From: Betaproteobacteria bacterium
GTDB taxonomy: Bacteria; Pseudomonadota; Gammaproteobacteria; Burkholderiales; SG8-41
NCBI GenBank assembly: GCA_016868035.1
Contig: VGID01000002.1
Location: 1-64,000, forward strand
Length of the DNA stretch: 64,000 nt
Direction: 5' to 3'
The notes below the pieces were generated by a model, which had not been told where the DNA came from, made no database searches, and saw nothing but the letters and a program-made list of their open reading frames with translations. Position numbers and translations under genes: made by a program. Below, one piece after another: positions 30,006 to 48,850 of the stretch. Position 1 is the stretch's first letter, and every line of letters begins with the position of its first letter.

Positions 30006-30587
30006 TCAGGCCGCGCGCGGGTTCACGACGTTGCGGCTGAACCCGTAGATGAGTCCCATCACCCCGACGGCCAAGATGTCGTTGCCCTGCGTCTCGAGCA
30101 CGATCTGCGGCAGGCTCTCGGTCGCGTGCCCGGAGATGACCATGCCGTGCCGCGTGAGGTCGAACGTCGTCAGATGTAGCGGGCACGCGCCCAGAATCTG
30201 GTGCTCCGGCTTGTAGGTGCCGTGCAGCGGTCCGCCCTGGTGCGGGCAGATCAGGTTGAACGCGACGACGTCCGAGCCCGGCCCCACCCCGCCGCCGCCC
30301 GGCACGCCCATCTTGACCAGCATGTTCTGCACCTGCGGATACGGGTAGGTGAAATTGACCGGCTTGCCCGTCGCGAGCGCCGAGAGCGTGCCGACTTTCT
30401 GGCGCGGATAGCTCGCCCTCAACGCGAACTGCGGCTTGCCCTGGGCGGCGGTGAGGCCGGGGATGGCGCCGAGCGCGACCACGGTGACCGTCGCCCCCCC
30501 TGCGAGCAGGAAACTGCGGCGGTTCATGCAGACCCCGCCTTCCCGGTCCTCGCCGTGCTCGTGCGGTTTCATGGTTTGCTGACTCAT
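30006..30587 (-). CDS. idrB: Rieske [2Fe-2S] subunit, AioB/IdrB-like
   Basis: The 193-residue product has a TAT signal (R23-R24 in MNRRSFLLAGG) and a hydrophobic stretch to about residue 48. Its Rieske motif is C114-P-H116-X18-C135-P-L-H138 (ICPHQGG and GACPLHL). It is encoded 21 bp upstream of the molybdoenzyme gene and should carry electrons between that subunit and a periplasmic cytochrome, co-exporting the catalytic subunit. A start at the internal Met21 just before the RR motif is possible. Confidence 0.8.
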   Translation of the reverse strand: MSQQTMKPHEHGEDREGGVCMNRRSFLLAGGATVTVVALGAIPGLTAAQGKPQFALRASYPRQKVGTLSALATGKPVNFTYPYPQVQNMLVKMGVPGGGGVGPGSDVVAFNLICPHQGGPLHGTYKPEHQILGACPLHLTTFDLTRHGMVISGHATESLPQIVLETQGNDILAVGVMGLIYGFSRNVVNPRAA

Positions 30588-33041: not shown

Positions 33042-33761
33042 TCAGCGCGAGAATTCAAACGCGGCGCTCACGGTGTCGCCGCCCTTGACGGTCACCTTGG
33101 CGCTGCGCTCGCCCAGGATCGGGTGCCAGGCCTTGAGCTCGTACTCGCCCGGGGGCACGTTGTCGATCGCGAACGAGCCGTCGTCCCGCGTCACCGCCAG
33201 GTACGGGTTGTCGGCCGCGAAGGCCCAGGCGTGCATGAAGTCATGGGCGTCGCACTCGATCTTCACCACATTCGAGCGGCGCATCTTGATCGGCTGGCGC
33301 ATGTCGCCCTTGTCCGGCTGGCCGACGTTGAACATCGTCCGGCGCACCGTTCCGATCATCTCGTAGGTGTGGATGTTGTGAAGCACGGGGTCGGAGTTGC
33401 GGATGGTGAGTTCGGCATCCTTGCGCACGATGAGCACGCCGGGGACGAAGGTGCAGCCCTTCTGGTCAAGAAGCGGCTTCTCCGCCTCGCCCCATGGCTT
33501 GCCCTTGTCCACCTTGGCGAGGTAGACCACCGCGTTTCTCAGGTTGCCGCCCTTGACGGCCACGTCGACGACTTCCCGCGTGCCCGTGCCGCAGACCTTG
33601 TTGTCCTTGGTGATCTGGATGCGCCTGGGCTCGGGCACCGCGCCCTTGAAGCTGACCTTGCCCGCGATCTGGCCCCCGCCGGACACGGTGGCGACCTCGT
33701 AGGCAAATGACGGGGCCGCGAACAGCGCCGCGATCCCCACGCAAACCGTCTTTCGAATCAT
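33042..33761 (-). CDS. Periplasmic cupredoxin/carboxypeptidase-regulatory-like protein
   Basis: The 239-residue product has a signal peptide (cleavage near SFAYE) and two parts. The first is a cupredoxin-like beta domain with LHNIHTYEMIGTVRRTMFN and ECDAHDFMHAWAFA, where His, Cys and Met residues could bind copper. The second is a C-terminal VPPGEYELKAWHPILGE segment typical of carboxypeptidase-regulatory-like beta sandwiches. Proteins of this type are often annotated methylamine utilization protein. AAGGAGG lies just before the ATG. It is the first gene behind the sigma-54 promoter of the iodate-reductase-like operon, so an electron-carrier or metal-related role is inferred. Confidence 0.75.
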   Translation of the reverse strand: MIRKTVCVGIAALFAAPSFAYEVATVSGGGQIAGKVSFKGAVPEPRRIQITKDNKVCGTGTREVVDVAVKGGNLRNAVVYLAKVDKGKPWGEAEKPLLDQKGCTFVPGVLIVRKDAELTIRNSDPVLHNIHTYEMIGTVRRTMFNVGQPDKGDMRQPIKMRRSNVVKIECDAHDFMHAWAFAADNPYLAVTRDDGSFAIDNVPPGEYELKAWHPILGERSAKVTVKGGDTVSAAFEFSR

Positions 33762-33831: not shown

Positions 33832-33847
33832 AGCAACAGGCGTGCCA
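33832..33847 (-). promoter_or_regulatory. Sigma-54 promoter (idr-like operon)
   Basis: The minus strand reads TGGCACG-CCTG-TTGCT, a near-perfect -24/-12 consensus with GG and GC 10 bp apart. It lies about 70 bp upstream of the cupredoxin-like gene and leaves a leader of roughly 60 nt. Confidence 0.85.
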
Positions 33848-33923
33848 TGAGAAATCGCGGCCACGCGCACGGGATTCCCCCCGCAAGCACGGCGATCCGC
33901 AGCGCTCGCGGCACCTGAGCGTT

Positions 33924-33938
33924 GGTCAAAATCTGACC
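33924..33938. promoter_or_regulatory. Enhancer palindrome GGTCA-N5-TGACC (idr-like operon)
   Basis: GGTCA-AAATC-TGACC is a perfect inverted repeat 77 bp upstream of the sigma-54 promoter. The same palindrome occurs at 44232-44246, 78 bp from another sigma-54 promoter. A weak second site (GATCG-N5-TGATC, 33944-33958) lies 20 bp away, the same spacing as the second site at 44252. Likely bound by the NtrC-type regulator at 44268-45665. Confidence 0.7.
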
Positions 33939-34080
33939 GGGGTGATCGGAATATGATCGCGGCGAGGCGGAGCACGGCGCCGCTTTGCCCGCCTCCAGCC
34001 CGTGCCCGGGGCGTGCCGCGCGGAGGGCACAGCTCTTGCTAGAGCCTGTCCGGACCGCTGCACGAACAACCGATGAATCC

Positions 34081-35490
34081 ATGAAAAACCACGCGGAGGT
34101 GGTGATCGTCGGGGCCGGAATCTCGGGCCTGACGGCAGCCTACGCCCTTGCGCGCCGCGGGCGCGACGTGCTGGTGCTGGAGCGCCGCGGGGCGGCCGGC
34201 GGGCGGATCCGCACGGAGCGCTGCGGGGGTTTTCTGCTCGAGCACGGTCCGAACGCGATGATCTCCCCGGCCGCCGGCGCGGAAGACCTCATCGCCGCGC
34301 TCGGGCTGCGCGACGAGCGGGCGGCCCGCTCCGATCGCGTGCGCCGCCGCTATCTCGTGCGCGATGGGGAGGCCCGCGCGCTCGCGCTGGATCCGCTGCG
34401 CTTCTTCGCCTCGGGGTATTTCTCCCTGGCGGGACGGCTGCGCCTGCTCGCCGAGCCGTTCGTCGCGCCGCGGCACGACGACGAGTCGGTCGCGCAGTTC
34501 GCGCGCCGCCGCTTCGGGCGCGAGATCTGCGACTACCTGTTCGATCCCCTGGTCGGCGGCCTCTACGCGGGCGATGCGGAGCGGCTGAGCATCTCCGCGA
34601 TGTTTCCGCAATTAAAGCGGCTCGAGCGCGAGCACGGCTCGGTGATCCGCGGGATCGCGACCGCGCGCCGCAAAAGCCAGGGCGCGTTCGACCCGCGGCG
34701 GCGCAGCCTGTTCTCGTTTCGCGGCGGCATGGAAGCGCTCCCGGCGGCGCTCGCCGATTCGCTCTCTGGCCGCGTGGCTCTTGACACGCGACTCGAGCAA
34801 ATCGAGCCGTTGCGCCGCGGCGGATTCCGGCTGAAAGTGCGCCATCGCGACGCTCCGGCGACGCTCGTCGCGGAAAACATCGTGCTCGCATTGCCCGCGT
34901 ACGCGGCCGCGCGAGCGGTCGCCAGCCTCGATGCCGATGCCGCTCACGCCCTCGCGCAGATCGAGCATCCCCCGCTGGCGCTTGCTTACCTCGGCTACGA
35001 AGCGCGGGCCGTATCGCATCCGCTCGACGGACTCGGGGTGCTCATGCCGGGGGCGGAGCGGCGCTCCGTGCTCGGGATCATCTTCTCCTCCACCGTCTTT
35101 CCCGGCCGCGCTCCGGACGGGCACGCACTGCTCACCGCGTATGTCGGGGGCGCGCGCCAGCCCGCGCTCGCATTGCTGCCGCCCGAAGAACTGATCGCGA
35201 CCTGTCACGCGGAGGCGGCAGCGCTGCTCGGGGCACGCCGGCAACCGGCGTTCGCGCGGGTGCATTACTGGCGTAGCGGGCTGCCGCAGCCGGCGCTCGG
35301 ACACGCCGCGCGCGTGGAGGCGATCCGGGCGCTGGAAGCGCGCTGCCCGGGCTTGTTCATAACGGGAAATTACCTCGGGGGTGTTTCGACCGCCGCCTGC
35401 ATCGACTCCGCGCTCGAAGTCGCGGAGCGCGTGCGTCCTGGCAGCGCACTCAGCGACACGCACCCGCTGCGCGCGGCAGCCGGTGCCTGA
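34081..35490 (+). CDS. Protoporphyrinogen oxidase (HemG/HemY-type FAD enzyme)
   Basis: The 469-residue product begins with the Rossmann FAD motif VVIVGAGISGLTAAYALARRG and a second nucleotide region GRIRTERCGGFLLEHGPNA. It ends with the FAD-binding GLFITGNYLGGVSTAACIDS segment typical of protoporphyrinogen oxidases (HemY/PPOX, 450-480 residues). It oxidises protoporphyrinogen IX in heme synthesis. It is divergent from the idr-like operon and convergent with a radical SAM gene, amid heme-rich operons, so local heme supply for the cytochromes is inferred. The ATG at 34081 lacks a strong ribosome site. Confidence 0.82.
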   Translation: MKNHAEVVIVGAGISGLTAAYALARRGRDVLVLERRGAAGGRIRTERCGGFLLEHGPNAMISPAAGAEDLIAALGLRDERAARSDRVRRRYLVRDGEARALALDPLRFFASGYFSLAGRLRLLAEPFVAPRHDDESVAQFARRRFGREICDYLFDPLVGGLYAGDAERLSISAMFPQLKRLEREHGSVIRGIATARRKSQGAFDPRRRSLFSFRGGMEALPAALADSLSGRVALDTRLEQIEPLRRGGFRLKVRHRDAPATLVAENIVLALPAYAAARAVASLDADAAHALAQIEHPPLALAYLGYEARAVSHPLDGLGVLMPGAERRSVLGIIFSSTVFPGRAPDGHALLTAYVGGARQPALALLPPEELIATCHAEAAALLGARRQPAFARVHYWRSGLPQPALGHAARVEAIRALEARCPGLFITGNYLGGVSTAACIDSALEVAERVRPGSALSDTHPLRAAAGA

Positions 35491-35493
35491 CCA

Positions 35494-36750
35494 TCATCCC
35501 CGAGGAATACCCCGCGATGCTGCAAACGGCATCGGCGGGCGGTGGGCGCGCATGAACTCCACCGTGATGGACGTGACGGCCTCACGCCCCGCCGCCTGCT
35601 CCAGTCGCTCGCGCACGCGCGCACGCACGAAAGCGGGGATGCGCGCGAGCAGCGCTTCGGCTTCCGGCTCCCATGAAACGGCCTGGGCCGGGATCTGCGC
35701 TTGCCACACCTCCGGCCGGACGCCCGGCGCGGCCTGATAGCGGCACTTGGAGTCCTCGGCCAGCAGATCGCCGTGCTGCGCGAGCGCCCGCGCGCGGCAG
35801 CCGCCGCAGCTGACACGATAGTCGCACCCGCCGCATTTCCCGCCCGGCAGCTCGCCGCGCAGCCGCGCGAATGAGCGGCCTGTCTCCCAGATCTCGCGCA
35901 GCGGCGTCGAGAGCAGGTCGCCCGCCGGCTCCGGGATGTACGGGCACGGCGTCACCCTGCCTTGCGGCGTGATGCGGAAATAACTTCGTCCCGCAAGGCA
36001 CGCGCTCGACCAGCCCGCGTAGCCGCCGGCGCCCTCGCCCGCGTGCAGGCCGAGCAGGCGGCGCAGGTACGGCGCGCAGCGCGCGCGCACCATCATGCCG
36101 GGCCGCGCAGCCTGCAGCCGCACGATCGCGAGCAGCGCCTCTTCGTAGGCTGCTGGCGGGAGATCCGTCTGCGTCACGCCGCGCCCGGTGCACACGAGGA
36201 AGAAGAAATTGAGCGCCATCGCCCCCACGTCTTGCGCGAGGTCGGAGAGCGCCTCGAGTTCGCCGCGGTTCTCCGCGAACAGCGTTGCCTGTAGCTGCAC
36301 GGCCAGGCCGACCGCACGCGCTGCGCGCGCACCGGCAAGCGCGCGCTCCCACGCACCCGCGACCCCGCGCAGCCGGTCGTGGAACGCGGCCGAGGCCGAA
36401 TCCACGCTGATCCCGACTCCCGCGGCCCCCGCGGCCTTCAGCGCCGATGCGTGCCTCGCATCGAGCGCGACTCCGTTGGTGCCGATCACCGGCATGAGCC
36501 CCAGCGCCGCCGCCCGTTCCACCAGTTGGGTGAGATCGCGCCGCAGCAGCGGCTCGCCGCCCGTCAGCACCAGCATCGCGCCCGGCGCCACCTCGCTCAC
36601 CTGGCGCAGCACCTCGAGCGCCGCGCTGGTGGAAAGCTCACCGGGAGCCTCGCGCCGGCGGGCGACCGCGTCCAGATAGCAGTGGCCGCACGCGAGGTTG
36701 CACACCTGCGTGAGGTTCCACGAAACGATTTGTGCGGCGGCGGCCGGCAT
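35494..36750 (-). CDS. Radical SAM/SPASM protein with C-terminal PCP-reductase-like domain
   Basis: The 418-residue product has the radical SAM cluster motif CNLACGHC (C-X3-C-X2-C) at the N-terminus, LTGGEPLLR for SAM, and a SPASM-like cysteine cluster (TPCPYI, then KCGGCDYRVSCGGCRA). It ends in a 45-residue domain (WEPEAEALLARIPAFVRARV) like the small PCP reductase domain (PF08369). NirJ/AhbC/AhbD heme-modifying enzymes share this architecture, and a hemG-like gene lies 3 bp away on the other strand, so a heme or heme d1 role is plausible but unproven. It is the last gene of the bd-like oxidase operon. Confidence 0.8.
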   Translation of the reverse strand: MPAAAAQIVSWNLTQVCNLACGHCYLDAVARRREAPGELSTSAALEVLRQVSEVAPGAMLVLTGGEPLLRRDLTQLVERAAALGLMPVIGTNGVALDARHASALKAAGAAGVGISVDSASAAFHDRLRGVAGAWERALAGARAARAVGLAVQLQATLFAENRGELEALSDLAQDVGAMALNFFFLVCTGRGVTQTDLPPAAYEEALLAIVRLQAARPGMMVRARCAPYLRRLLGLHAGEGAGGYAGWSSACLAGRSYFRITPQGRVTPCPYIPEPAGDLLSTPLREIWETGRSFARLRGELPGGKCGGCDYRVSCGGCRARALAQHGDLLAEDSKCRYQAAPGVRPEVWQAQIPAQAVSWEPEAEALLARIPAFVRARVRERLEQAAGREAVTSITVEFMRAHRPPMPFAASRGIPRG

Positions 36751-36755
36751 CGCTG

Positions 36756-38177
36756 TCAGCCGAGCTGGGCCGCGACCGTCTGCTGCGCCGCGTCCACCAG
36801 CTCCGCGGTGACGGCGGGCATCTTGAGGCCGCGCGCCATCTTCTCGATGCGCAACCGCGCGTGGTTGCGCACGGTCTCCTGGCCGATGCGCTCCAGCCGC
36901 GCGAGAGCGTCGGCCTCCCAGCGGATCGCCTCGCCGGCCGGCGCCGTCTCCCGCCCGCGCTTGTTCGTAAACGGGCACTTGGCGCCGCTCCCCGCGCCCG
37001 GCATCAGCGAGCCCAGGCACGCATCGATCACGTCGGAGGTGACCATCGTGTGCCCTCGCTCCGCGGCAAAGCGCAGGATCGCCTTGCGCGCGAGACCCTG
37101 CACGAACTCCGGCACCCGCCCCATCCGCGCTTCGGCCTCCACAGTCCACGACATCGTCGTCTCGGCAATCGTGTCGAACGCAGGCTGCCACTCCCGTGCC
37201 GACAGCAGCAGGTTGCACGGCGCGAGCCGCAGCAGGTTCTCGGTGAGGCTGCCGAGATCCATCCCGTCCCCGGAGTGGACGCCGGTGCGGCCGAGCACCA
37301 GCAGCCACGGTTTCGCCTCGCGGGCGTAACGCAGCACCTGCTCGAGGGGCTTCCCCGCGAGCAGCCGCGTGGTGAGGGTCACCCCCTCCTCCGCCGCGAC
37401 CCGGGCAGCGACATCGAGGTGGCCCTGGTAGATGCGCGCGATGCCCGAATCGATGATCTCCTCGTGCAGCCGCTCCTGCTCCTTGAACCGGAACACGCTC
37501 GCCGCCTGAGGCGAGAGCACTCCCGCGATGCTGTTGAACGCAACGTAATGGAACTGCGGATCGAACGCGGCGACCGCTTCGACCGGACGGCCGTAGAGCC
37601 GCGCGAGCCCCAGCGCGGTCTTCAGGCCGCCGTAGGACCGGGGGCTGCCGTCGAGCGCCACCGCGATGGGGCCGTCGCCGCCGCCGTTCGCGTCGCGCAC
37701 GACGACGAGGTCGCGGTCGATGCGGCGGGCCACGCGCTCGCACACGCTGCCGAGCTGCGAGCATTCGACGGCGCCGAGCCCGAGCGCGCCCATCACCACG
37801 AGGTCGTAGTCTCCCGCGCCGATGTCCTCGACGAGCCCCTGCCAGTTCTTGCCCTCGAGCGCGACGCGCGCGCAGCCGAGCCCGGCGTCTGCGCACATCC
37901 GCTCGAACACGTCGAGATAGGAATCCGAGATGAGCTGCAGCCCGCGGGTGATGAGGTCGTCGTGGATGTCGCGCTGCTCGACGAGCTTCTCTTCCCTGAG
38001 ATAGGGCTCGGGCAGGCCGGCTTCCATCTGCCGGAAGCGCCGGTCGTGCAGCTTCGCGGCGTAGACGTGGCTGCCGGTCAGCTGCGCGCCGGTGTGCCTG
38101 GCATGCGCGATGGCCATCTCTGCGCCGCGCAGCGAGTGCGCGGAGTTGTCGAGCGGGACGTAGATCGAGCGGTACAT
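36756..38177 (-). CDS. Tandem universal stress protein with two PCP-reductase-like domains
   Basis: The 473-residue product has two Usp domains. The first opens YRSIYVPLDNSAHSLRGAEMA and contains LVVMGALGLGAVE; the second begins IAVALDGSPRSYGGLKTAL and contains LLVLGRTGVHSG. These are followed by two copies of a short helical domain like PF08369 (TVEAEARMGRVPEFVQGLAR and WEADALARLERIGQETVRNH). The same domain ends the radical SAM protein 5 bp downstream, so the two may interact. GGGAGG precedes the ATG. Function unknown; probably a cytoplasmic nucleotide-binding factor for cofactor or cytochrome maturation. Confidence 0.8.
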   Translation of the reverse strand: MYRSIYVPLDNSAHSLRGAEMAIAHARHTGAQLTGSHVYAAKLHDRRFRQMEAGLPEPYLREEKLVEQRDIHDDLITRGLQLISDSYLDVFERMCADAGLGCARVALEGKNWQGLVEDIGAGDYDLVVMGALGLGAVECSQLGSVCERVARRIDRDLVVVRDANGGGDGPIAVALDGSPRSYGGLKTALGLARLYGRPVEAVAAFDPQFHYVAFNSIAGVLSPQAASVFRFKEQERLHEEIIDSGIARIYQGHLDVAARVAAEEGVTLTTRLLAGKPLEQVLRYAREAKPWLLVLGRTGVHSGDGMDLGSLTENLLRLAPCNLLLSAREWQPAFDTIAETTMSWTVEAEARMGRVPEFVQGLARKAILRFAAERGHTMVTSDVIDACLGSLMPGAGSGAKCPFTNKRGRETAPAGEAIRWEADALARLERIGQETVRNHARLRIEKMARGLKMPAVTAELVDAAQQTVAAQLG

Positions 38178-38191
38178 GGGTCCTCCCTTCG

Positions 38192-38812
38192 CTAGCGGGG
38201 TCGTTCCTTCAGAATGGCGCGCACGGAGCGCGTGATTTGCTTCACGGGGGTGCCCGTGCCGTGGAACTCGACCCGGTTCATGCCGTCGCGGTCGATCACG
38301 ATATAGACGCTGTTGTGGACGAAGTCCCCGCGCGGGGCCGGACGGACGACGATGCCGTAGTCTTCGGCGACCCGCGCTGCTTCCTTCAGGTTGCCGGTGA
38401 GCACGCTCCAGCGCGCGGGATCGAGGCCGCGCTCCCTGGCGTAGATTGCGAGCCGCTCCGGCGTGTCGCGCGCCGGGTCCACCGTGATGCCCACGAAGCG
38501 CACGTGGGCGCGCTCGGCGTCCGCGAGCTGGTCCTCGACGCCCTTCATCACGGTGAGGAGCAAGGGGCATACGTCGGTGCACTGCGTGTAGAGGAACGTC
38601 ATCACGACGACGCGCCCGCGGAAATCCGCGAGCGTGGCGCGCCGGCCTCGCTGGTCGGTGAGCGTGAAGCCCGGGGCGGGCTCGTTGACGACGAGCCGGT
38701 TGAAGTCGCCGCCCTTCGCGGACTTGCCGTGCGCGAAGAGCGTGACCGGCGCGAGCGCAAAGGTGACGAGCACGGCGAGCGCGGCCGCCCATGCCCTCGT
38801 TGGCGTGAACAT
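38192..38812 (-). CDS. SCO1/SenC-family copper/thiol protein
   Basis: The 206-residue product has a signal anchor (residues 8-27) and a thioredoxin-like domain with the SCO copper motif C78-T-D-V-C82 (YTQCTDVCPL) and the distal H166 (DFVHNSVY). SCO proteins deliver copper or maintain thiols during assembly of heme-copper oxidases and related enzymes. It follows three tandem copies of a 105-bp intergenic unit and precedes the Usp gene by 14 bp. Starts at GTG 38821 or ATG 38812. Confidence 0.9.
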   Translation of the reverse strand: MFTPTRAWAAALAVLVTFALAPVTLFAHGKSAKGGDFNRLVVNEPAPGFTLTDQRGRRATLADFRGRVVVMTFLYTQCTDVCPLLLTVMKGVEDQLADAERAHVRFVGITVDPARDTPERLAIYARERGLDPARWSVLTGNLKEAARVAEDYGIVVRPAPRGDFVHNSVYIVIDRDGMNRVEFHGTGTPVKQITRSVRAILKERPR

Positions 38813-38825
38813 GCCGTTCACCCGC

Positions 38826-39140
38826 GCCGCCTCTGAACCAATGTGTTCATGATCAATCTCCCCGTCGGCGGCCCGGCCGCGTTCACGGTCACATCCCCCA
38901 AAAGGGGGCCCCTGTTCCTCGCTCACGCGCGCCGCCTCTGAACCAATGTGTTCATGATCAATCTCCCCGTCGGCGGCCCGGCCGCGTTCACGGTCACATC
39001 CCCCAAGAGGGGGCCCCTGTTCCTCGCTCACGCGCGCCGCCTCTAAACCAATGTGTTCATGATCAATCTCCCCGTCGGCGGCCCGGCCGCGTTCACGGTC
39101 ACATCCCCCAAGAGGGGGCCCCTGTTCCTCGCTCACGCGG
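38826..39140 (-). repeat. 105-bp intergenic unit in three tandem copies
   Basis: Three near-identical 105-bp units (38826-38930, 38931-39035, 39036-39140) fill the gap between the cytochrome/EB_dh gene and SCO1. On the minus strand each contains a CCCCC-4 nt-GGGGG hairpin, a GGGGAG ribosome site and ATG AAC ACA TTG GTT, a short leader frame of about ten codons. In the first transcribed copy (39036-39140) a TAG ends it after five. Each unit begins with the TGAGCGAGG that contains the upstream gene's stop codon, so the whole intergenic region was triplicated. Confidence 0.95.
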
Positions 39141-40680
39141 CCACCCCTTTCCTGCGGCGCAGCTGTCGCAGCAGCCAGATCTCGCCGCCCACGGTCGCGA
39201 GCCCGAGCACGAGCGGCCACAGATAAGCGGTAACCGGCGTGGGCAGCTCGGCAATTACGTAGTACCACGCCGAGACCGCCATCTTGAGTCCCTCCTCGCC
39301 CGCGTCGCCATCGCGCAGGTGGAAGGCGACCGGAACGAACCTGCCCGGCTCGAAGCGGAGAGCGTCTTTTGATTCCGGGACGAGCGCGCGCCGGAAGATC
39401 ACGCGGTATTGCCCGTCGCGGTAGGTCCCTTCCGCGGCGATCCCGCCGTCCCGCTCCTCGCGCAACCGGTCCGCCCCCTCGGCGATGAGGCGCGTGAGGC
39501 CCTTTCCGGCGTTCCATCGCCACAGCTCGACCGGATTCTTGCGGTCGCCGAGCACGAAATAGGGCCGCTCGTCCCCGGTGTCGGGGCGCGCGGGGAACTG
39601 CAGCTCCACCTCGTCGGCGGGCTTTGCGCCTCCGCGATTGTGCGTGCCATCGTCCCATTCGACGAGAATCGCGATCTCGCGCCCGTTGTAGAGGGCGCGC
39701 GCCGTGATGACATCGTGCGCGGGCGTGAACCAGCGCGGCTCGATGATGATCTGCCCGGCGAGGAGGAAGTCCACATACCCGGCCTTCTCCCACGCGGCCG
39801 CCCACGGGTCTGCGGGAATCGCGCCGGCGTGAAAGCGCGCCTTGAGGACGTGTCCGGTCTTCTGCGAGCGCACGAGGCTTTTCACGTAGGCCGCAAGCGC
39901 CCAGCGGTCCTCCGCGGCCGGGATCGCGTCCACAAACGAGGGCATCGGCGTGCCGTTGAAGCCCGTGGTGAAGGTGCGGTAGATGTCCTCCACGCGGTCT
40001 CCCGCGCGGAAGCGCCAGCCCTTGGTGAAGTTCACCGGCCGGATCGGGAAGCCCCAGTCGTCCTTCATCTGGTCGGCGGAGGTGCCGTCGCCGCGCCCGT
40101 ACTGGCCGTGGCACTGCCCGCATTTCTTCGACTCGTAGAGGTCCTTGCCGCGTGCGAGCAGCTCGGGCGTGATTCTCGGCGGCGAGCCCACCGCGATGCG
40201 CGCCTTCTGCGGCTCGTCCCTGAAGAGGTCGAGCACGTCGAAGGTTTTCACCTGGTGCACGAGTTGCCAGCGCTCGGCCTCGGAGAGGTATTTCTTCCAC
40301 GGCGGCATCGAGGTGCCGGGCAGCCCCTCGCTGATCGCCCGGTAGAGATCCTGGTCGGTGGGAAGCTGCCCGGTGGGGGTGCTGCGCACCTTATAGAGCG
40401 CGAGCGTGAAATCGCGCGGGCGCGGATAGACGAGATCCGCCGCCGGCCCGTCGCCCTTGCCTTGCTCGCCGTGGCATTGCGCGCAGTGCCGCTCGTAGAG
40501 CGCCTTGCCGGCCGCCGGGTCCGCGGCCACCGGCGCCGGCTTCACCGGCTCCATCTTCACCTCGGGCCGCGGCGGCGCCGCGAACACGCCCGCGGCGAGC
40601 GCAGCGCACGCGGCGAGCGTCGCCGCGAGATAGTGGCGCCGGCTCCGGCGTTCAGTGCTTCGCATGCGAAACCGCCTCAT
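39133..40680 (-). CDS. Di-heme cytochrome c with ethylbenzene-dehydrogenase-like heme b domain
   Basis: The 515-residue product has a signal peptide and two cytochrome c domains, C66AQCH70 and C187GQCH191, each followed by a late Met-rich ligand segment. A beta-rich region (about residues 265-470, IIIEPRWFTPAHDVITARAL) like the EB_dh heme b domain (PF09459) follows. It ends in one C-terminal membrane helix with a basic tail. It probably links periplasmic electron carriers to the membrane complex encoded upstream. Its start overlaps the previous cytochrome gene by 29 bp. Confidence 0.83.
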   Translation of the reverse strand: MRRFRMRSTERRSRRHYLAATLAACAALAAGVFAAPPRPEVKMEPVKPAPVAADPAAGKALYERHCAQCHGEQGKGDGPAADLVYPRPRDFTLALYKVRSTPTGQLPTDQDLYRAISEGLPGTSMPPWKKYLSEAERWQLVHQVKTFDVLDLFRDEPQKARIAVGSPPRITPELLARGKDLYESKKCGQCHGQYGRGDGTSADQMKDDWGFPIRPVNFTKGWRFRAGDRVEDIYRTFTTGFNGTPMPSFVDAIPAAEDRWALAAYVKSLVRSQKTGHVLKARFHAGAIPADPWAAAWEKAGYVDFLLAGQIIIEPRWFTPAHDVITARALYNGREIAILVEWDDGTHNRGGAKPADEVELQFPARPDTGDERPYFVLGDRKNPVELWRWNAGKGLTRLIAEGADRLREERDGGIAAEGTYRDGQYRVIFRRALVPESKDALRFEPGRFVPVAFHLRDGDAGEEGLKMAVSAWYYVIAELPTPVTAYLWPLVLGLATVGGEIWLLRQLRRRKGVAA

Positions 40681-41413
40681 CCCAGGTGCGCGGCGTGGAC
40701 CCGGAAGCGTCGTAGATATAGAGGATTACCTTCCACATCTCGTCCTCGGTGAGAAAGTTCTGCCACACCGGCATCGCGGAATTCCAGGGCGTCGCCCCCT
40801 TCGGCAGCCCGCGCCCGCCGGTCGCCACGCGCCAGAACACGTACGATTCCTGCAGCATGGATATCGTGCCGACGTCGCGGAAGTTGCCGGGGATCGGCAG
40901 GAACGCGCCCGCGAAATGACCGTCGCCCGCGAGCGTGTCGCCGTGGCAGAAGAAGCAATTGCGGAAGTAGACCGTCTTGCCCTCGGCGATCCGCTTGCGA
41001 AGCTCCGGCCCGGTTGAGCGCAGCGGATTTGCGAGCCCGGCGACCTCCATCCGCTTGCCGTGCAGCGGGAAGCTCGCCGGCGGCTCCGGGTGCACCACGC
41101 GCGCCTCGAACGGCGCATCTGCCGAGGGCACGACGCGCTGGTAGGTGACCCACGCGACCGCGGCCGGAATTGCGACGAGCACCACGACCTGCACGGCGCG
41201 CGGCGCCTCTCCCGTGAACACGGACCGGATCGGCGCGACGAAATGGGCAAATCGCGCCTCGTTCGCCGCCACGAAGATCAGCGTCCCGATGACGGTGAGC
41301 ACCATGTACATGGTGACGACGCTGGTGGGCACCGGGGGCGAGACGAGGAGCTTCAGGCCGGCGTAGACCGCGGCCCAGATCAGCACGGTGATGGAGAACG
41401 CGAATCGCTGCAT
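40652..41413 (-). CDS. Membrane-anchored mono-heme cytochrome c
   Basis: The 253-residue product has three membrane helices (about residues 3-24, 33-50, 73-91), then a periplasmic cytochrome c domain with C153FFCH157 and MPVWQNFLTEDEMW as the distal region. ATG overlaps the preceding gene's TGA (TGATG). Likely an electron conduit to or from the bd-like oxidase subunit encoded two genes upstream. Confidence 0.85.
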   Translation of the reverse strand: MQRFAFSITVLIWAAVYAGLKLLVSPPVPTSVVTMYMVLTVIGTLIFVAANEARFAHFVAPIRSVFTGEAPRAVQVVVLVAIPAAVAWVTYQRVVPSADAPFEARVVHPEPPASFPLHGKRMEVAGLANPLRSTGPELRKRIAEGKTVYFRNCFFCHGDTLAGDGHFAGAFLPIPGNFRDVGTISMLQESYVFWRVATGGRGLPKGATPWNSAMPVWQNFLTEDEMWKVILYIYDASGSTPRTWDEAVSHAKH

Positions 41414-42312
41414 CAGGGCGCCTCCCCGCGGCGCCGGCGGCGCGACGCCGTGGCGACGGCAACGAGCATGCCGAGGTTGAACACGAGCACGATGAGGCCG
41501 AGCCGCATGCCCTCGTGCGAGAAGGGCGAGGCCGCGCCGGTGGCCGAGTACGACTTGCCGGCGAGCCCCGCGAGATAGGCCACCATCTCGTGACGGTCGC
41601 CCTCGGGGACCGCGCGTCCGAGCTCGGCGGGCATGATGCCCGCCTGGTAGCCGGGCGTCGTCCAGATCCCGGGCTCGATGATCTTGCGCAGCAGCTCGGC
41701 AGGCTCGCGGGCGGCGGCCGAGCGGGTGATGTCCGGCCCGAGCTCGCCGCCTTCGCCTTCCACCTTGTGGCAGGCGAGGCAGCCGTGCTGCGCCAGCAAC
41801 GTCTTGCCCCGGTGCACCGGGCCGCCGGGCTTCGCTGCGGCGAGATCTTCCTGCGCCACCTTGACCGTCACCTCGGAGCCGCCCAGCACCTGCAGGTAGG
41901 CAACCACCGCCTTCACTTCCGCCATGGTGAGGTTGGCGGGCGGCTTCAGCGCCGAGGGCATCATCTTCGGGTAATCGGGCACGACGTAAGCGTCGGGGTC
42001 CACGAGCGACTCGACGAGGTAGGCTTCCGCGCTCATCCCCGGCTTGCGCGTTGCCGCCTTCGCCGTGCTCTGGCGCAGATCCGGGCCCCGGTCGTTGCCG
42101 CGCTCGGTCACCTTGTGGCAGACGAGGCAACCGCCCTTGCCGCGCGCGAGCTCTTCTCCGATCGCCGCGAGTTCCTCGCCCGGGGTCGCCGTGCCGATCA
42201 CCTTCTTCGCCGGCGGGTGCTCTTCGAATTGCGGCACGAGCTGGCCGACGTACGAAAAGATCCCCACCACGACGAAAACGAACAACACGATGCGCGCGAA
42301 GGTCCCCGCCAT
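41413..42312 (-). CDS. Di-heme membrane cytochrome c
   Basis: The 299-residue product has an N-terminal membrane helix (residues 7-24), two cytochrome c domains (C62LVCH66 and C178LACH182) and a C-terminal membrane helix (about 268-288) with an arginine-rich tail. It is tightly packed after the bd-like oxidase gene (1-bp gap). Two anchored hemes suggest it takes electrons from the quinol/bd-like protein or from soluble cytochromes. Confidence 0.87.
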   Translation of the reverse strand: MAGTFARIVLFVFVVVGIFSYVGQLVPQFEEHPPAKKVIGTATPGEELAAIGEELARGKGGCLVCHKVTERGNDRGPDLRQSTAKAATRKPGMSAEAYLVESLVDPDAYVVPDYPKMMPSALKPPANLTMAEVKAVVAYLQVLGGSEVTVKVAQEDLAAAKPGGPVHRGKTLLAQHGCLACHKVEGEGGELGPDITRSAAAREPAELLRKIIEPGIWTTPGYQAGIMPAELGRAVPEGDRHEMVAYLAGLAGKSYSATGAASPFSHEGMRLGLIVLVFNLGMLVAVATASRRRRRGEAP

Positions 42313-42313
42313 G

Positions 42314-44074
42314 CTATGCCCCCGCGCGCGCCGACCCGTGGCGCGCGGCCATCCAGAACACCATCGCCACCAGCGCGAAGAATACGAGCACGATGAAGGA
42401 CACGATCAGCGTGGCGTGGCCGTGGGTCATGGTGTAGGCATGGGCGCTCTCGTCCATCACGCGCCCGTAGACGTGCCAGTACTGGCGGATCCCCGACCGG
42501 ATGTAGCCCATGAGGCCCATCAGCCAGGTGAACGCGATCGCGAGAAAAAACAGCCCGTACTGGGCGCGCGCCGGGATATCGCCCCAGCGGATGGCGCCGA
42601 TCTCGCGCGCGCCCCTCAGCATCGGGATGTCGATCGCGACGAACACCGTCATCGCGGCGAGCACCGCGAGCACCTGGTATACGGAGAAACCGATGCGCAC
42701 GTTCGACGGCACGTAATAGCTGTAGACGCCGTAATAGAGGACGACCGCGCCGGCCACGGCGATCGCCGCTGCCTGCACGGCCTTGGCCGTGGCCGCCCAC
42801 GGCACGACGGGCACCCGGTTCGCCCTCCGGTAGAGCATGAAGGCGAGGAAGGTGGTGAGGATCATGAGATTCACCGCCGTGTTCTTGGCCGCCATGACGC
42901 CGAACAACCCCAGGAACGGGTGGTGGGAGCCGCCCATCGCGGTCATCTCCGCCCCGGTGGCGATGATCGAGCGCGGCGTCGCCCACACGATGAATCCGAG
43001 GGTCAGCACGAGCATCATCGGCCCCTGGAACCGGACGTAGCGCTCGGCGCCCGGGATGCGCCCCATGCCGAGCCAGAGGTAGAAGTTCGCCCCGAAGAAG
43101 AGCGAGCCGATCAGCATCGCCTGCAGGATCCACAGCCAGGAGAAGCCCCCGCCCATCATCGAGACGCCCATCTGCTCGCTGAACTGGTAGATCTCGCGCC
43201 CGAGCCAGTAGCCGGCGAAGGGCAGCGGGATGAACGCGGCGATCGCGATGAACGAGCCGACGTAGCCCATCCAGTCGAAACGCGCGCGCTCCTCGGCGCT
43301 CGTCGCGGCGAGAAAGCGCACCGCCGCGTAGGCGGCGACGATCGCCCCGCCGAAAGCGACGTTCGCGAGCAGCCGGTGCACGTTGATCGGCATCCAGGTG
43401 TGATTGTTGATCGCCGCCCAGAGGCTCGTGAGGTTTCCCATCTCGTCGAGGCCGGCGGGGCTCATCATGAAGGTCACCCAGATGTCGGCGACGAAGAGCA
43501 GCGCCGTGCCGACGATGTTCACGAGCGCCCCCAGCAGGAGGTGCCAGCGCTTGCGCGCGCCCTGCAGGATGTCCCAGGTGAACCAGTAGAGGTAGGCGAA
43601 GAGCACCTCGGTGAAGATCAACGCGACGTAGAGGGCCCAGGTCGGCTTGAAGAGCTTGCTGAGATAGCCCGTGAACTTCGGATAGAGCACGAGCAGCAGC
43701 ACGAGCAGCAGGCAGCCGAGCGCCGCCGTCAACGTGTAGGCCATCGCGAGGAGCTTCGTGAACTCGCGCGCGAGATCGTCGTAGCGGCGCTCCTTCGTGA
43801 CGACGCCGACAATCTCGGTGATGAACGCGAAGATCGGCACGCCCAGCACGAAGGCGGCGAACATGAGGTGCAGCTCGGCGACGATCCATACCGCGGTGCG
43901 GTTGCCGAGCACGGGCAGCGCGCGGTAGTCGGCGGGGTTCAACACCGAGGCGAGCCCCTGCGCCGCAAGGTAAGTCGCGACGAGCAGCACCGATATCTTC
44001 AGGATGCCTTTCCAGGTGCCCTTCAACGCATCCACGAGCGCCGCGTCCGCGCCCGCCGTCTTGGCCTGAGGCAA
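42314..44074 (-). CDS. Cytochrome bd ubiquinol oxidase subunit I-like protein
   Basis: The product has about 13-14 membrane helices with CydA-type features: the AELHLMFAAFVLG helix, KLLAMAYTLTAALGC, FTEVLFAYLYWFTWDILQG and NNHTWMPINVHRLLAN. No CydB gene follows; cytochromes c come instead, as in bd-like oxidoreductases of other bacteria. The longest frame starts at 44143, but that codon lies inside the sigma-54 promoter and would be upstream of the mRNA start. I choose TTG 44074, preceded by GGAGGA, giving 586 residues. First gene of the operon 44074-35494. Confidence 0.8.
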   Translation of the reverse strand: MPQAKTAGADAALVDALKGTWKGILKISVLLVATYLAAQGLASVLNPADYRALPVLGNRTAVWIVAELHLMFAAFVLGVPIFAFITEIVGVVTKERRYDDLAREFTKLLAMAYTLTAALGCLLLVLLLVLYPKFTGYLSKLFKPTWALYVALIFTEVLFAYLYWFTWDILQGARKRWHLLLGALVNIVGTALLFVADIWVTFMMSPAGLDEMGNLTSLWAAINNHTWMPINVHRLLANVAFGGAIVAAYAAVRFLAATSAEERARFDWMGYVGSFIAIAAFIPLPFAGYWLGREIYQFSEQMGVSMMGGGFSWLWILQAMLIGSLFFGANFYLWLGMGRIPGAERYVRFQGPMMLVLTLGFIVWATPRSIIATGAEMTAMGGSHHPFLGLFGVMAAKNTAVNLMILTTFLAFMLYRRANRVPVVPWAATAKAVQAAAIAVAGAVVLYYGVYSYYVPSNVRIGFSVYQVLAVLAAMTVFVAIDIPMLRGAREIGAIRWGDIPARAQYGLFFLAIAFTWLMGLMGYIRSGIRQYWHVYGRVMDESAHAYTMTHGHATLIVSFIVLVFFALVAMVFWMAARHGSARAGA

Positions 44075-44138
44075 GATGTCCGTCCTCCGTGTATGGCGCC
44101 GCGAGTCCGCCGGCGCCTGTTCTTGATGCGGGGAGCCT

Positions 44139-44154
44139 TGCACTAACCATGCCA
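44139..44154 (-). promoter_or_regulatory. Sigma-54 promoter (bd-like/cytochrome operon)
   Basis: The minus strand reads TGGCATG-GTTA-GTGCA, matching the -24/-12 consensus with correct GG-N10-GC spacing. It lies about 65 bp upstream of the TTG start with GGAGGA. Confidence 0.75.
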
Positions 44155-44231
44155 GCGCAACGGGCGCGCGGGCGCGCCCATGAATGACGGCTCTTTCCCG
44201 CGCGCCGGTGCATACCGCGGCACCGCCGGGT

Positions 44232-44266
44232 GGTCAGAAACTGACCGCCGCGGTCAACGCGTTACC
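44232..44266. promoter_or_regulatory. Tandem enhancer palindromes for the NtrC-type regulator
   Basis: GGTCA-GAAAC-TGACC (44232-44246) is perfect, and GGTCA-ACGCG-TTACC (44252-44266) has one mismatch. Their centres are 20 bp apart, two helical turns, as expected for cooperative NtrC-family binding. The first is 78 bp from the sigma-54 promoter at 44139-44154 and identical in half-sites to that of the idr-like operon. Confidence 0.7.
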
Positions 44267-44267
44267 A

Positions 44268-45657
<1,390 letters not shown>

Positions 45658-45665
<8 letters not shown>

Positions 45666-48057
45666 GCGCCGCCTCCGCCAGGCGCGTGGTGCCCGCCGCC
45701 TCGCGCAACTGCCGCAGCTCGCGGGCATCCAGCGGCGCGATCGGCCAGACGAGCTCGAAGGTGGTGCCCTTCCCCGGCTTGCTCTTCACGTAGATGTCCG
45801 CCCCGTGCATCACGGCAATCTTCTTCACCACCGCGAGCCCGAGCCCGGAGCCGAGCCGCCGCGTCGTGAAGAACGGCTCGAAAATGCGTGGCAGCACTTC
45901 CGGCTCGATGCCCGGCCCGGTATCGCGCACGCACACGCGCATCCGCGGGAGCTCGCCCTCGAGGTCCTCGCTGTGCCCGATGCCCGCGCACATGCCGATC
46001 TCGATGCGCCCTCCTTCGGGCATCGCCTGCACGGCGTTGATCACGAGGTTCAGCAGCACCTGCTTCAGCTGGCCCGGGTCGGCCCAGAGCGCGGGCACCC
46101 GTTCGCCGCACGGCGCGTAGCGGATGACCACCCCGCGCGAGGTCGCTTCCTTGCGCGTCCAGAGCAGCACGTCCTCCAGCGCCGACTCGAGCCGGCACGC
46201 GACCGGATGCATCTCCTGGGGCGCGGCGAACCCGTGGAACGTGCGCAGGAACTCCGCGAGCCGGTTCACCTCGCCGTGGATGCGCTCGAGAGCGGAGCGC
46301 TGGTCGGCCGGAAGCGTGTCCTGCTCCAGCAGCATCTGCACCACCGCCTTCATCCCGGCGAGCGGATTGCCGATTTCGTGCGCGAGCCCCATCGCCAGCT
46401 CGCCCATCGTGGTCATTTTTTCCATCTGGAACATGTGACGGTCGAGCTCCCGCCGGTGCTCCTGCAGCCTGCGCTCCTCGCTCACGTCGCGCACCACGAC
46501 GATGAACCCCTCGGGGCTGCCCCTGGGGGCGACCGCGGCAACGCTCGCGGACAGCGTGTGTCCCGCATGCACGAATTCGAGCGGCTGCGCCCCCCGGAGC
46601 CGGGCCCCCGCCCCGGCCGCGAACGCACCCCAGGCCTCCCAGAACTCCGAAAAGCGCCTGCCGACGAGGGCTGCGCCGCCCCCGAGCAGCCGCTCGGCCG
46701 CGCTGTTCGCCAGCTCGATCGCGCCGTCCGGGCCGAGCGCGAGGATGCCATCCGCCGTGCTCTCGATCACCATCGCGAGATTCCTGCGCTCGCGCTCGAG
46801 CGCGGCGGTCCGCGCGCCGACCTCGGCCTCGAGGCGCTCCTTCTGGTCCGCGAGCCCCTGATAGAAGCGCTCGAGCTGTGCTGCCATCGAATTGAAGCGG
46901 GCCCCGAGTTCGGTGATCTCGTCGCCCCCCCGGATCTCGACGCGGTTGGAAAAGTTGCCGCGCGCGATCTCCTCGGTCTCGTTCTTGAGCAGCGTGAGCG
47001 GCCGCAGCAGGTGGCGCGACAGGGCGTAGCCGCCGAGCGCGGTGGCCGTAAGGCAAAGCCCGAGCACGCCGTAGAGCAGGTAGAGATTGAACACCGCTTC
47101 GAACAGGCGCGCACGCGGATAGGTGGAAGCAACCGCCCAGTCCATCGCACTGTCGGTGCGCTCGGAGAGCGTGGTGCCGACCACGATCGGCGCAAACGCG
47201 ACGATCCAGTCGCCGATCACCTCGGCGCCGTGCGTCCCCTGCAGGATCCGGGCGAGCAGCGGCCGGGACAGAAGCGGCACCAGCGCTTCGGCTGATTCCA
47301 TCGTGAGCGTGCCCGAGCCCGCTTCCCGCGCGCCGCGCGAGAGGTAGAAGCCGGAGTGGTCAAAGAGGTATGCGATGCCGCCGCGCACTCCGGCCATCTC
47401 CTGGATCTGCTCGAGGATGACTTCAGCGTGCACGTTGATCACGAGCAGGCCGCGCTTGTGGCCCTTGCGGTCGGCGATCGGCGTCGCGAAGCGGATCACG
47501 GGACGCTCCGGAATCTCGACCTTGCCGTGCTCGATATTCAGGTCGAGCCGCGAAACGTAGACCTGCCCCGGCTCGTGGCTGAAGCCCTCGTTGAAGTAGT
47601 AGCGCCCCGCCTTGTTCTGCAGCTCGTGCTCCGGCACGACGTAGATGCGGTCGTCGCGGCGATCCACGCGCACCACCTCCATCCCCGATTCATCCAGAAC
47701 ACGAACCTGGTACGCATGATGGTAGGAGCGGGCAAAAGTCGCGTAGTCGCGCTCGAGTCGCTGGCGCGCGGCAGGCGCCACGCCGCCGCCGCCGGCGAGG
47801 TTGTTGGCCAGGTCGTGGAGCAGCGGCGAGCTCGCGAGGTAGATGATCTCGCGCGTAACCTGGTCGAGCAGGCGTGCGATCCCCGTTGCGCGGCTCGTCA
47901 CCTCATGGTCCAGGTGGCGCAGCGTCTCCTGCTTCAACGCGTCGAGGGAGTAGTAGATGCCGATCAGGCCGGCCGCCGTGACGGGCACCGCCGCCGCGAT
48001 CAGGAAGGCCGCGTAGGTCTTTGCCGCGAGCCCGCGGAAATGACGCAGAATCCTCAA
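45658..48057 (-). CDS. Membrane sensor histidine kinase
   Basis: The roughly 799-residue product has a first membrane helix, a long periplasmic dCache-like sensory region with YYFNEGFSHEPGQVYVSRLD, a second membrane helix, a HAMP domain (LLKNETEEIARGNFSNRVEI) and a PAS domain. These are followed by a HisKA domain with MGLAHEIGNPLAGMK and an HATPase domain (LNLVINAVQAMPEGG, DTGPGI, GSGLGLAVV). It overlaps the response regulator gene by 8 bp. The start is uncertain: TTG 48057 has AGGTAGG before it, while the frame opens at 48096. The signal may be a respiratory substrate or intermediate in the periplasm. Confidence 0.9.
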
Positions 48058-48850
48058 GTGCCTACCTCGGACCGCCCAGAGGGCGCCGTGCGGCAACCGT
48101 TTTGAACACGCTCATCAGGTGGCTCCGCCCCGAACATAGACGCTCCGGGACGGCGCCGAATTGATCTACCGCAAAGAAAACCGCCGGCGGGCCGGGGCGG
48201 TTGCCACGAAATGCGGGCGCCGGCCCCATACCGAGCGCGGGCGGAATGTCGTGGGCGGCGCGAGGCTCGCCCGAGGCGGACTGCGCGGAACCGGGACGCA
48301 GGCCGAGCGTGTGCTGCGCGCTGCGTTCCGGACCGAACCCGGCATGGGTCGCTCCGCGTAGCCGCAAAGCGCGCGTACGCCGGTCTCGTCCGCGCGCGCG
48401 ATACTGCAGGTACCCGTCGGCTGCGCGAAGAGGCTGTGCGTCTGCACCGGAGCCGCCCGACCACGCGGCAGCTCACGGCAACAAAAAGTCTTTTTAATCA
48501 ATTACAAGCGGTATAAACCTCCCGCGCGGACGCAAGCGGGACCACCTGAGGGGCGCCGGGCCGGCCCTGCGCCTCGCACCGGCGGCGTTGCGCCGGACCG
48601 AGACCCGGGCGCGCGGCACGAGGGCGGGCAGGTGGCGTCTCCAGCCTGTATTTCAAACAGAAACCGGGAAGTAGCCAGCGCAAAGGAAAAAAGCTCTGGT
48701 ATGATTCTCGCGCAGCAGGGGTATCGGCAGCCGGATCCGCTGGATAAGGCTGCAACGACACGACCGGAACACGCGATACAGCGTGATGAGCCTCATGAGG
48801 AGACCCCGGATGTTGGGCAGGAAGGTGCGGGCAGGGAGCGCGAAACCGGC
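48058..48850. other. Gene-free gap between sensor kinase and DUF2062 gene
   Basis: Several short frames cross this 793-bp stretch, for example 48062-48367 on the minus strand. None has a ribosome site or recognisable protein, and their composition is that of chance frames in GC-rich DNA. An AT-richer patch at 48486-48520 may hold the promoter of the minus-strand kinase operon. Confidence 0.5.
48698..48706 (+). promoter_or_regulatory. Extended -10 promoter candidate
   Basis: TGG-TATGAT is an extended -10 element (TGn followed by a 5/6 TATAAT match), about 145 bp upstream of the DUF2062 gene. The -35 region (AGCGCA) is poor. Confidence 0.4.

Follow-up and report, generated by a model that had tools for sequence, protein, structure and literature searches.

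Iodate respiration contributes one step to the global iodine cycle and could be of use in cleaning up radioiodine. On the control of this process, the available parts of the literature searched do not go beyond noting a regulator gene nearby: in Azoarcus DN11, genes for a σ54 regulator (atoC) and a kinase (atoS) were already reported upstream of idr (available sections of PMC10149662). For the related arsenite oxidase, AioR and an RpoN site are described as needed for aioBA (available sections of PMC7533571). Here we describe, in a stretch of 64,000 nucleotides (the window), a putative σ54-dependent two-component regulon for iodate respiration, which occurs mostly in Betaproteobacteria. Judged from sequence, its core (regulator, sites, σ54 promoters and idr) has a probability of about 0.82. 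The binding site, the promoters and a co-regulated bd-like operon were not found reported in the available parts of the literature searched on iodate/idr regulation. The names IdrR and IdrS are introduced in this analysis.

Gene Content of the Locus

The first gene of the idr operon, all of which is on the minus strand, is X0 (33042-33761). It encodes a probable exported protein with a carboxypeptidase-regulatory-like domain, by eye a possible cupredoxin, for which a PDB sequence search returned no informative relative. The adjacent genes of two di-heme peroxidases of the MauG/CCP family, P2 (31809-32936) and P1 (30598-31797), each with two CXXCH motifs, are followed by those of the Rieske subunit IdrB (30006-30587) and the molybdopterin catalytic subunit IdrA (27294-29984). 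IdrB contains the Rieske motif CXHX18CX2H and the RR motif of a TAT signal, the Pfam TAT_signal match being under the cut-off. IdrA contains CX2CX3CX70S, shares 75% identity with its counterpart in Denitromonas iodatirespirans IR-12 and 28-30% with AioA-type proteins, and falls with the IR-12 protein within one 36-row clade. On this identity and clade membership, the operon called idr-like in an earlier note on this DNA is by homology an idr operon, encoding a predicted iodate reductase. Divergent from it, on the plus strand, is a gene for a protoporphyrinogen-oxidase (HemY)-like FAD enzyme (PPOX-like; 34081-35490; 2ivd, E 2.2e-78).

The bd-like operon, also on the minus strand, starts with a gene for a CydA-like (cytochrome bd subunit I-like) membrane protein (42314-44074, predicted TTG start). 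It further encodes c-type cytochromes with two (41413-42312), one (40652-41413) and two CXXCH motifs (39133-40680, with an ethylbenzene-dehydrogenase-type heme domain), a Usp + PCP_red protein (36756-38792) and a radical SAM/SPASM protein with a PCP_red domain (35494-36750), whose best NCBIfam matches, NirJ2 and AhbD, were below cut-off. An AlphaFold model of the CydA-like protein (mean pLDDT 69.9) matched bd subunit I in Foldseek with a probability of 1.00; because the TM-scores were low (best 0.57, target-normalised), no residue-level claim is made from the model. The protein shares with CydA this fold match, the N-terminal half and the equivalents of His21 and Glu108 of the Geobacillus enzyme, whereas Tyr replaces the equivalent of Glu101 in all 19 aligned sequences and the C-terminal half is unaligned. 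We take these three positions to be conserved heme-region residues of cytochrome bd. No CydB was present among the ORFs examined in the bd-like cluster, and the single CydB identified genome-wide comes after a separate full-length CydA on contig 63. An ordinary bd oxidase was rejected, given that this CydA-CydB pair lies elsewhere. Its sequence marks the bd-like protein as related to CydA but divergent, and as separate from the ordinary CydAB of the genome; hence it need not be an oxidase.

The response regulator IdrR (44268-45665, minus strand, start from homology) has a receiver, an AAA+ σ54 activator and a Fis-type HTH domain. The sensor histidine kinase IdrS (45658-48096, minus strand, approximate start with homology from ~48051) has a periplasmic PF21623/dCache-type domain followed by HAMP, PAS, HisKA and HATPase domains. 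The earlier note placed an NtrC-type regulator and its kinase beside the sites, which is the case at the bd-like operon; the idr promoter is ~10 kb off. An RpoN-type domain is encoded in the same genome.

Promoters and Palindromic Sites

Two -24/-12 promoters had been proposed, and both exist on the minus strand: that of the idr operon at 33832-33847 (TGGCACGCCTGTTGCT, read from 33847 to 33832) with 0 mismatches and that of the bd-like operon at 44139-44154 (TGGCATGGTTAGTGCA, read from 44154 to 44139) with two mismatches. A divergent σ54 promoter on the plus strand (34025-34040, GGGCACAGCTCTTGCT), absent from the earlier note, precedes the PPOX-like gene, so that the proposed regulon of two operons keeps both of its promoters and grows to three. 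This divergent promoter was found at 9 of 9 X0-type loci having the PPOX-like gene and in 0.8% of shuffles. With up to two mismatches, the σ54 promoter pattern is not enriched in the window (15 vs. 22.9 expected).

Exact GGTCA-N5-TGACC palindromes, to which no strand is assigned, are located where they had been claimed, at 33924-33938, a predicted upstream activating site common to the idr operon and the divergent PPOX-like gene, and at 44232-44246, upstream of the bd-like operon. The gaps from promoter to upstream palindrome are 76 bp (idr) and 77 bp (bd-like); the spacing is matched as proposed, the earlier values of 77 and 78 bp being coordinate differences. The proposed outer sites, likewise without strand, are also present, each 20 bp outside its palindrome: a weaker one at 33944-33958 (7/10) and one at 44252-44266 (9/10). 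A distance of 20 bp is the commonest spacing between paired sites in relatives. The genome scan suggested earlier found three exact palindromes vs. ~4 expected from base composition; the sole further copy was rejected as an additional target because it is inside a coding ORF, TctC-like by eye. Palindromes with at most one mismatch occur at three places in the window vs. 1.26 expected, a weak enrichment that 15 of 100 shuffles reached.

Neither the palindrome nor the promoter is rare alone; their combination, however, is not chance, because the composite is unique to two places in this genome and relatives keep the same arrangement. A degenerate composite pattern matched the genome twice, both times at these promoters (reversed control, 1), and a stricter one also twice (reversed control, 0). 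Among regulator-bearing genomes, 28 in all, two whose regulators are at 49-50% were omitted; in the other 26 the composite gave 19 matches (18 distinct promoters in 15 genomes; reversed control, 1). All 19 are at idr or bd-like operons, and thus the regulon looks dedicated. An extra composite match in one relative (G132, contig 49) was taken as chance, there being no idr or bd-like gene at that place; by eye, a VapC-like ORF and glmS are near it. In a sample of 300 genomes from the order, the background is too high for the composite to be diagnostic alone: the loose pattern matched 111 genomes, with an untallied control that matched many too, and the stricter pattern matched 25 places in 24 genomes (control, 14). 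Idr or bd-like operons account for 4 of these 25 places and other loci for 21. The sample included 5 regulator-bearing genomes, only 3 of which matched.

Conservation and Co-occurrence with the Regulator

The architecture of sites and promoters is conserved and co-occurs with the regulator. Among 90 idr or bd-like promoters, and with thresholds fixed after a first look at the data, the σ54 element was present at 38 of 38 regulator-linked promoters and 0 of 52 others, and a palindrome of at least 8/10 at 35 of 38 and 0 of 52, respectively. The palindromes, whose loss from relatives retaining the operons and the regulator would have told against the earlier note, are therefore largely kept. A promoter was called regulator-linked if its locus contains a close regulator; for X0-type idr promoters and L136, a close regulator at another place in the genome also counted. 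Sequences with <200 bp upstream and loci without a visible first gene were left out, and L011, the same genome as L130, was omitted from the 2 × 2 table; three locus pairs share a contig, judged by its length (L030/L188, L077/L190 and L060/L191). L043 and L071 were counted among the 49 rows without regulator because none is beside those idr copies, although their genomes do carry it. Shuffled sequences were positive in 0 of 50 cases for each of 91 promoters, and GGTCA-N5-TGACC was joint top among 10,240 palindromic dyads (28 of 38 regulator-linked promoters vs. 1 of 52 others). The Fisher p of 3e-21 for the association ignores shared descent, since on the IdrA tree the correlation amounts to one gain (1 change, 1 independent pair); the independent-pair comparison, with its one pair, has no power.

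A palindrome of at least 8/10 was missing at three regulator-linked promoters that have the σ54 element (L017 of Azonexus, L025 and L139), and in the validated Denitromonas strain the sites reach 8/10 only. The element was absent at the second idr copies of two regulator-bearing genomes (L043 and L071) and at three loci with 47-50% regulators (L074, L085 and L099). Two of the latter three regulators share the HTH core. The regulators of the loci studied here form one clade in a quick tree with few outgroups, among them one paralogue from the window's own genome, and two AioR-type rows.

Proposed Regulon and Alternatives

We infer that IdrS would sense a periplasmic signal, probably iodate or one of its reduction products, and phosphorylate IdrR. 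The regulator would bind tandem GGTCA-RTTTY-TGACC sites, most of which lie 50-110 bp upstream of a -24/-12 element, and would activate RpoN polymerase at three promoters. The predicted targets are the X0-P2-P1-idrB-idrA operon, the divergent PPOX-like gene, served by the same sites, and the operon for the CydA-like protein, the c-type cytochromes and the heme-related proteins; the latter two may supply electron-transfer partners and heme to the reductase. The dedicated sensor system for both operons that the earlier note predicted gains support from the conservation of sites and promoters with the regulator. More speculatively, IdrS might be a dedicated periplasmic iodate sensor that switches on a new type of respiratory chain, in which electrons would pass from a CydA-derived, non-oxidase quinol dehydrogenase through c-type cytochromes, perhaps with X0, to IdrAB, with its own heme-supply genes in the same regulon. 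If that were true, bc1 and alternative complex III would be joined by a third quinol-to-cytochrome-c route, the CydA-like/cytochrome module.

A general signal (low oxygen, nitrate, redox or heme state), with the iodate genes as part of the response, would leave the core of the regulon intact and compete on the signal alone. We consider it unlikely, although the ligand of the PF21623/dCache-type sensor domain is not known, the regulon includes heme-related genes and a CydA-like protein, and Roseovarius reduces iodate mainly under static conditions (available sections of PMC11445184): the 19 of 19 composite matches at idr or bd-like operons argue against it, as does the induction of idrA by 0.1 μM iodate in Roseovarius azorensis, described in the same sections for a locus without this regulator and site. 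It is quite improbable that the kinase-regulator pair controls the bd-like operon only and that another σ54 activator with a similar site serves the idr promoter. The position of the regulator, directly before the bd-like operon and ~10 kb from the idr promoter in the window, would fit such control, but a 57-64% identical regulator was found in 14 genomes without the bd-like operon, and where the locus shows it in such genomes, it immediately precedes idr, the two being separated by a site of this kind; furthermore, the next-best match to the regulator in the window's own genome is only 42% identical.

Two further explanations are also hard to credit. Palindromes arising by chance or belonging to another DNA-binding protein, with coincidental σ54 promoters, would agree with the ~4 exact copies expected per genome, the weak enrichment in the window and the unenriched promoter pattern at two mismatches, and are highly improbable in view of the co-occurrence with the regulator, the conservation and the places where the composite falls in regulator-bearing genomes. 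An arsenite oxidase under AioXSR-like control is suggested by the NCBIfam names of the subunits (arsenite_ox_L/S, above cut-off) and by AioSR being likewise a σ54 pair (available sections of PMC7533571). This identity was rejected, as very improbable, on the IdrA identities (28-30% to AioA-type proteins vs. 75% to Denitromonas IdrA), the clade and the neighbors: di-heme peroxidase genes are present, whereas AioA neighborhoods are described without them (available sections of PMC8692401), the regulator is outside the branch of two AioR-type proteins, and no AioX-type periplasmic binding protein was found among the ORFs beside the kinase that were examined with Pfam.

Comparison with Known Systems

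For iodate respiration, the IdrS-IdrR regulon proposed here would comprise a kinase, a regulator with its predicted binding site and three target promoters; the idr part is testable in isolates (Denitromonas and Azoarcus). It would also link iodate reduction with a CydA-like/cytochrome operon that is uncharacterised, and the system could serve as an iodate reporter. With NtrC/ZraR/AtoC-type σ54 response regulators it has in common the domain order, palindromic tandem upstream sites and -24/-12 promoters, while IdrR is below the equivalog cut-offs of the NCBIfam families (25 listed of the 118 matched). In AioXSR/aioBA of Agrobacterium and Rhizobium NT-26, too, a kinase-regulator pair that depends on σ54 is found next to a Rieske/molybdenum oxyanion enzyme of a related kind. 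IdrR, however, is 36-38% identical to AioR, is on another branch, has a different HTH and carries GAFTDA where one AioR has GAFTGA, and its putative targets, unlike aioBA, are idr and a cytochrome operon. The idrABP1P2 loci of D. iodatirespirans IR-12, Azoarcus DN11 and Pseudomonas SCT encode the same enzyme family with the same motifs; X0, the PPOX-like gene and the bd-like operon are additional features of the type of locus found in the window.

Sigma-54 Promoters and Palindromic Sites

Both exact palindromes of the sequence GGTCA-N5-TGACC that an earlier note had placed at 33924-33938 and 44232-44246 were found there by sequence scan, as were the two -24/-12 promoters at 33832-33847 and 44139-44154, which are oriented leftward on the minus strand. 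Each palindrome is accompanied by a weaker copy 20 bp farther from the promoter (33944-33958 and 44252-44266). The palindrome-promoter spacing, given in the note as 77 and 78 bp, is 76 and 77 intervening bases. The genes for the response regulator (44268-45665; here IdrR) and the sensor kinase (45658-48096; here IdrS) lie directly upstream of the bd-like operon, and an RpoN-type domain is encoded in the same genome. The regulon proposed by the earlier note was limited to two operons, and this limit did not hold, because a third, divergent sigma-54 promoter at 34025-34040 faces a protoporphyrinogen-oxidase (PPOX)-like gene (34081-35490) that runs rightwards between the two operons. Such a facing element (score ≥0.89; 12-49 bp ahead of the approximate gene start) was present in all nine loci with the divergent gene, the window included, and in 0.8% of trials with shuffled sequences. 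Thus, one set of sites probably serves two divergent sigma-54 promoters.

Neither the palindrome nor the promoter pattern was enriched alone when window and genome counts were compared with expectation. Three exact palindromes were found in 3.9 Mb vs. about four expected, palindrome enrichment at the level of the window was weak, and the window had fewer matches to the promoter pattern than expected when two mismatches were allowed. The case rests on the combination of the elements and on their conservation. A genome scan for palindromes near sigma-54 promoters returned exactly the two reported places, both with a composite in which 60-90 bases separate a degenerate palindrome from TGGC-N8-TGC (2 places; reversed control, 1) and with a stricter composite containing TGGCAY-N6-TGC (2 matches; reversed control, 0). 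The third genomic palindrome was rejected as a target, as it falls inside an ORF that is TctC-like by eye.

Conservation and Co-occurrence with the Regulator

In each of 91 promoters belonging to idr or CydA-like operons, we looked for a sigma-54 element (score ≥0.85 with GG and GC) and for a palindrome (≥8/10) some 25-165 bp upstream of it; dinucleotide shuffles scored in 0 of 50 trials for each promoter. With one duplicate genome left out, and with thresholds chosen once much of this data set had already been inspected, the sigma-54 element was found in 38/38 regulator-linked promoters and both elements in 35/38, in agreement with the predicted conservation, and neither was found in the 52 others (49 without an adjacent regulator and three with a distant regulator of 47-50% identity). 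Because shared descent is strong, with a single change of the trait on the IdrA tree and one independent pair, the Fisher p of 3e-21 for the association between regulator and elements is not to be read literally. In an unguided search of 10,240 palindromic dyads (≤1 mismatch), GGTCA-N5-TGACC ranked joint first (28/38 vs. 1/52); the overlapping dyad CGGTC-N7-GACCG equaled it at 28/38, but also occurred in 4/52 of the other promoters.

In 26 whole regulator-bearing genomes, the stricter composite gave 19 matches in 15 genomes (reversed control, 1), representing 18 distinct promoters because two matches overlap, and all 19 lay between the regulator and its target operon or ahead of X0. In the remaining 11 genomes, the promoter lay outside the sequence viewed, or its sites or spacings departed from the stricter pattern. 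Among 300 genomes of the order, the stricter composite matched 25 places in 24 genomes (reversed control, 14), of which four were idr or bd-like promoters (two in the window's own genome and one each in relatives G132 and G218) and 21 were elsewhere; three of the five regulator-bearing genomes in this sample were matched. At that background rate, about two off-target matches would be expected in the 26 genomes, and none was seen.

The consensus of 61 sites (each ≥8/10) was GGTCA-RTTTY-TGACC, whose A/T-rich center lay outside the selection criterion. Site-promoter distances ranged from 32 to 159 bp and were 50-110 bp for 51 of the 61, with 8 of the 17 CydA-like-operon sites at 75-78 bp; the gap was again exactly 77 in G132, which belongs to a different family. 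The commonest spacings between neighboring sites were 20 bp (16 cases), 19 bp (8), 15 bp (7) and 34 bp (4). In the validated Denitromonas strain, the sigma-54 element is good, but the sites, at 112 and 146 bp, reach only 8/10.

Regulator and Kinase

The 30 close regulators formed one clade (SH-aLRT, 97) with two AioR-type proteins outside it, in a rapidly built tree that has long branches and few outgroups. Their sigma-54-contact loop reads GAFTDA in 29 of the 30, the window's regulator included, and GAFTSA in one; one of the two AioR-type proteins has GAFTGA and the other GAFSGA. The helix-turn-helix motifs NK[TS] and TLR are kept in 30/30 and also in two relatives of 49-50% identity, so the helix-turn-helix core does not explain the absence of the site from the loci of the latter. 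The kinase sensor region matches PF21623 and is 43-63% identical to those of 12 other kinases.

The idr and bd-like Operons

The leftward operon at 33761-27294 encodes X0, two MauG/CCP di-haem peroxidases (P2 and P1), a Rieske subunit (IdrB) and a molybdopterin subunit (IdrA). Its description as idr-like was borne out: the molybdopterin subunit shares 75% identity with the IdrA protein of a demonstrated iodate reducer, Denitromonas iodatirespirans IR-12 (PMC8692401), 72% with an Azonexus plasmid protein, and 28-30% with AioA-type proteins. In a FastTree of 86 rows, it falls within a 36-row clade containing Denitromonas IdrA; the neighboring 13-row clade includes Roseovarius azorensis and Notoacmeibacter marinus, for both of which iodate reduction has been reported (PMC11445184). 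Both IdrA and IdrB have the cluster motifs described for Azoarcus DN11 (PMC10149662). IdrA relatives (57-59%) were also seen on contigs labeled as Euryarchaeota and Omnitrophica (L072 and L073), and second idr copies without a sigma-54 element (L071 and L043) in genomes that have the regulator.

In the bd-like operon (44074-35494), the gene for a CydA-like protein is followed by genes for three c-type cytochromes, a Usp/PCP_red protein and a radical SAM protein resembling NirJ2/AhbD. The N-terminal half of the CydA-like protein keeps equivalents of His21 and Glu108 of the Geobacillus enzyme, which, together with Glu101, we take to be conserved haem-region residues. The equivalent of Glu101 is Tyr in all 19 aligned sequences, the protein matches the Pfam CydA model over about half its length (69 bits), and contig 63 of the same genome separately encodes CydB along with an ordinary, full-length CydA (537 bits). 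These observations argue against an ordinary bd oxidase; an electron-transfer role fits. The PPOX-like gene and its divergent promoter, considered alongside the proteins with radical SAM and PCP_red domains, suggest a dedicated haem supply. In-frame stops interrupt the CydA-like gene at about 9601 of locus L011 in the metagenome assembly of G132.

Distribution in Relatives

An IdrA profile search of named genomes gave at least 459 relatives, of which the best 80 were used. Among these, the order kinase-regulator-P2-P1-B-A occurs in Denitromonas, Azoarcus, Aromatoleum, Undibacterium and an Azonexus plasmid, among others, and the regulators there share 57-64% identity with that of the window. 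At E 1e-120, the regulator was matched in 28 of 43 genomes from the same best 80; at E 1e-40, a CydA-like protein was found in 18 of the 43. The CydA-like gene was found in 11/11 genomes with a 73-77% regulator, in 1/15 with a 57-64% regulator (G306, a Magnetococcales assembly), and as relatives of 49-59% in six genomes without a regulator match. In the 300-genome sample, four had the CydA-like gene, six IdrA and three both. The carriers are mostly Betaproteobacteria. Among the exceptions are a gammaproteobacterial assembly in which the arrangement is complete (L031), the Magnetococcales assembly (bd-like promoter, L138) and a plasmid of Thiothrix that encodes both regulator and kinase (L018; promoter outside view). 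At two Rokubacteria idr loci (L057 and L058), which lack both the site and a close regulator, CydA-like and cytochrome genes come directly after idrA, so the functional link between idr and CydA-like genes may be older than the sigma-54 control.

The Azonexus hydrophilus plasmid (L017, 11312-33937) carries the entire kinase-regulator-idr set near IS21 and Tn7-like transposition genes, a setting consistent with a mobile idr island. The plasmid retains the sigma-54 element, and its sites look by eye to have drifted to a GGTTA-N5-type palindrome.

Proposed Mechanism and Known Systems

Cis-elements, their conservation, their co-occurrence with the regulator and the idr homology are observed; on this basis, IdrS would sense iodate or a product of iodate and phosphorylate IdrR, which, on the tandem sites, would activate three promoters served by RpoN polymerase. 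The least certain step is the part played by the CydA-like operon. In the literature covered on iodate or idr regulation, most of it outside subscription journals, we found nothing further on the site, the promoters or the bd-like operon. For Azoarcus DN11, a regulator gene and a kinase gene upstream of idr have already been published (PMC10149662). We rate the idr system as a sigma-54 two-component regulon of known type with new targets, resembling AioXSR, whose sigma-54 control over a related oxyanion enzyme is established (PMC7533571).
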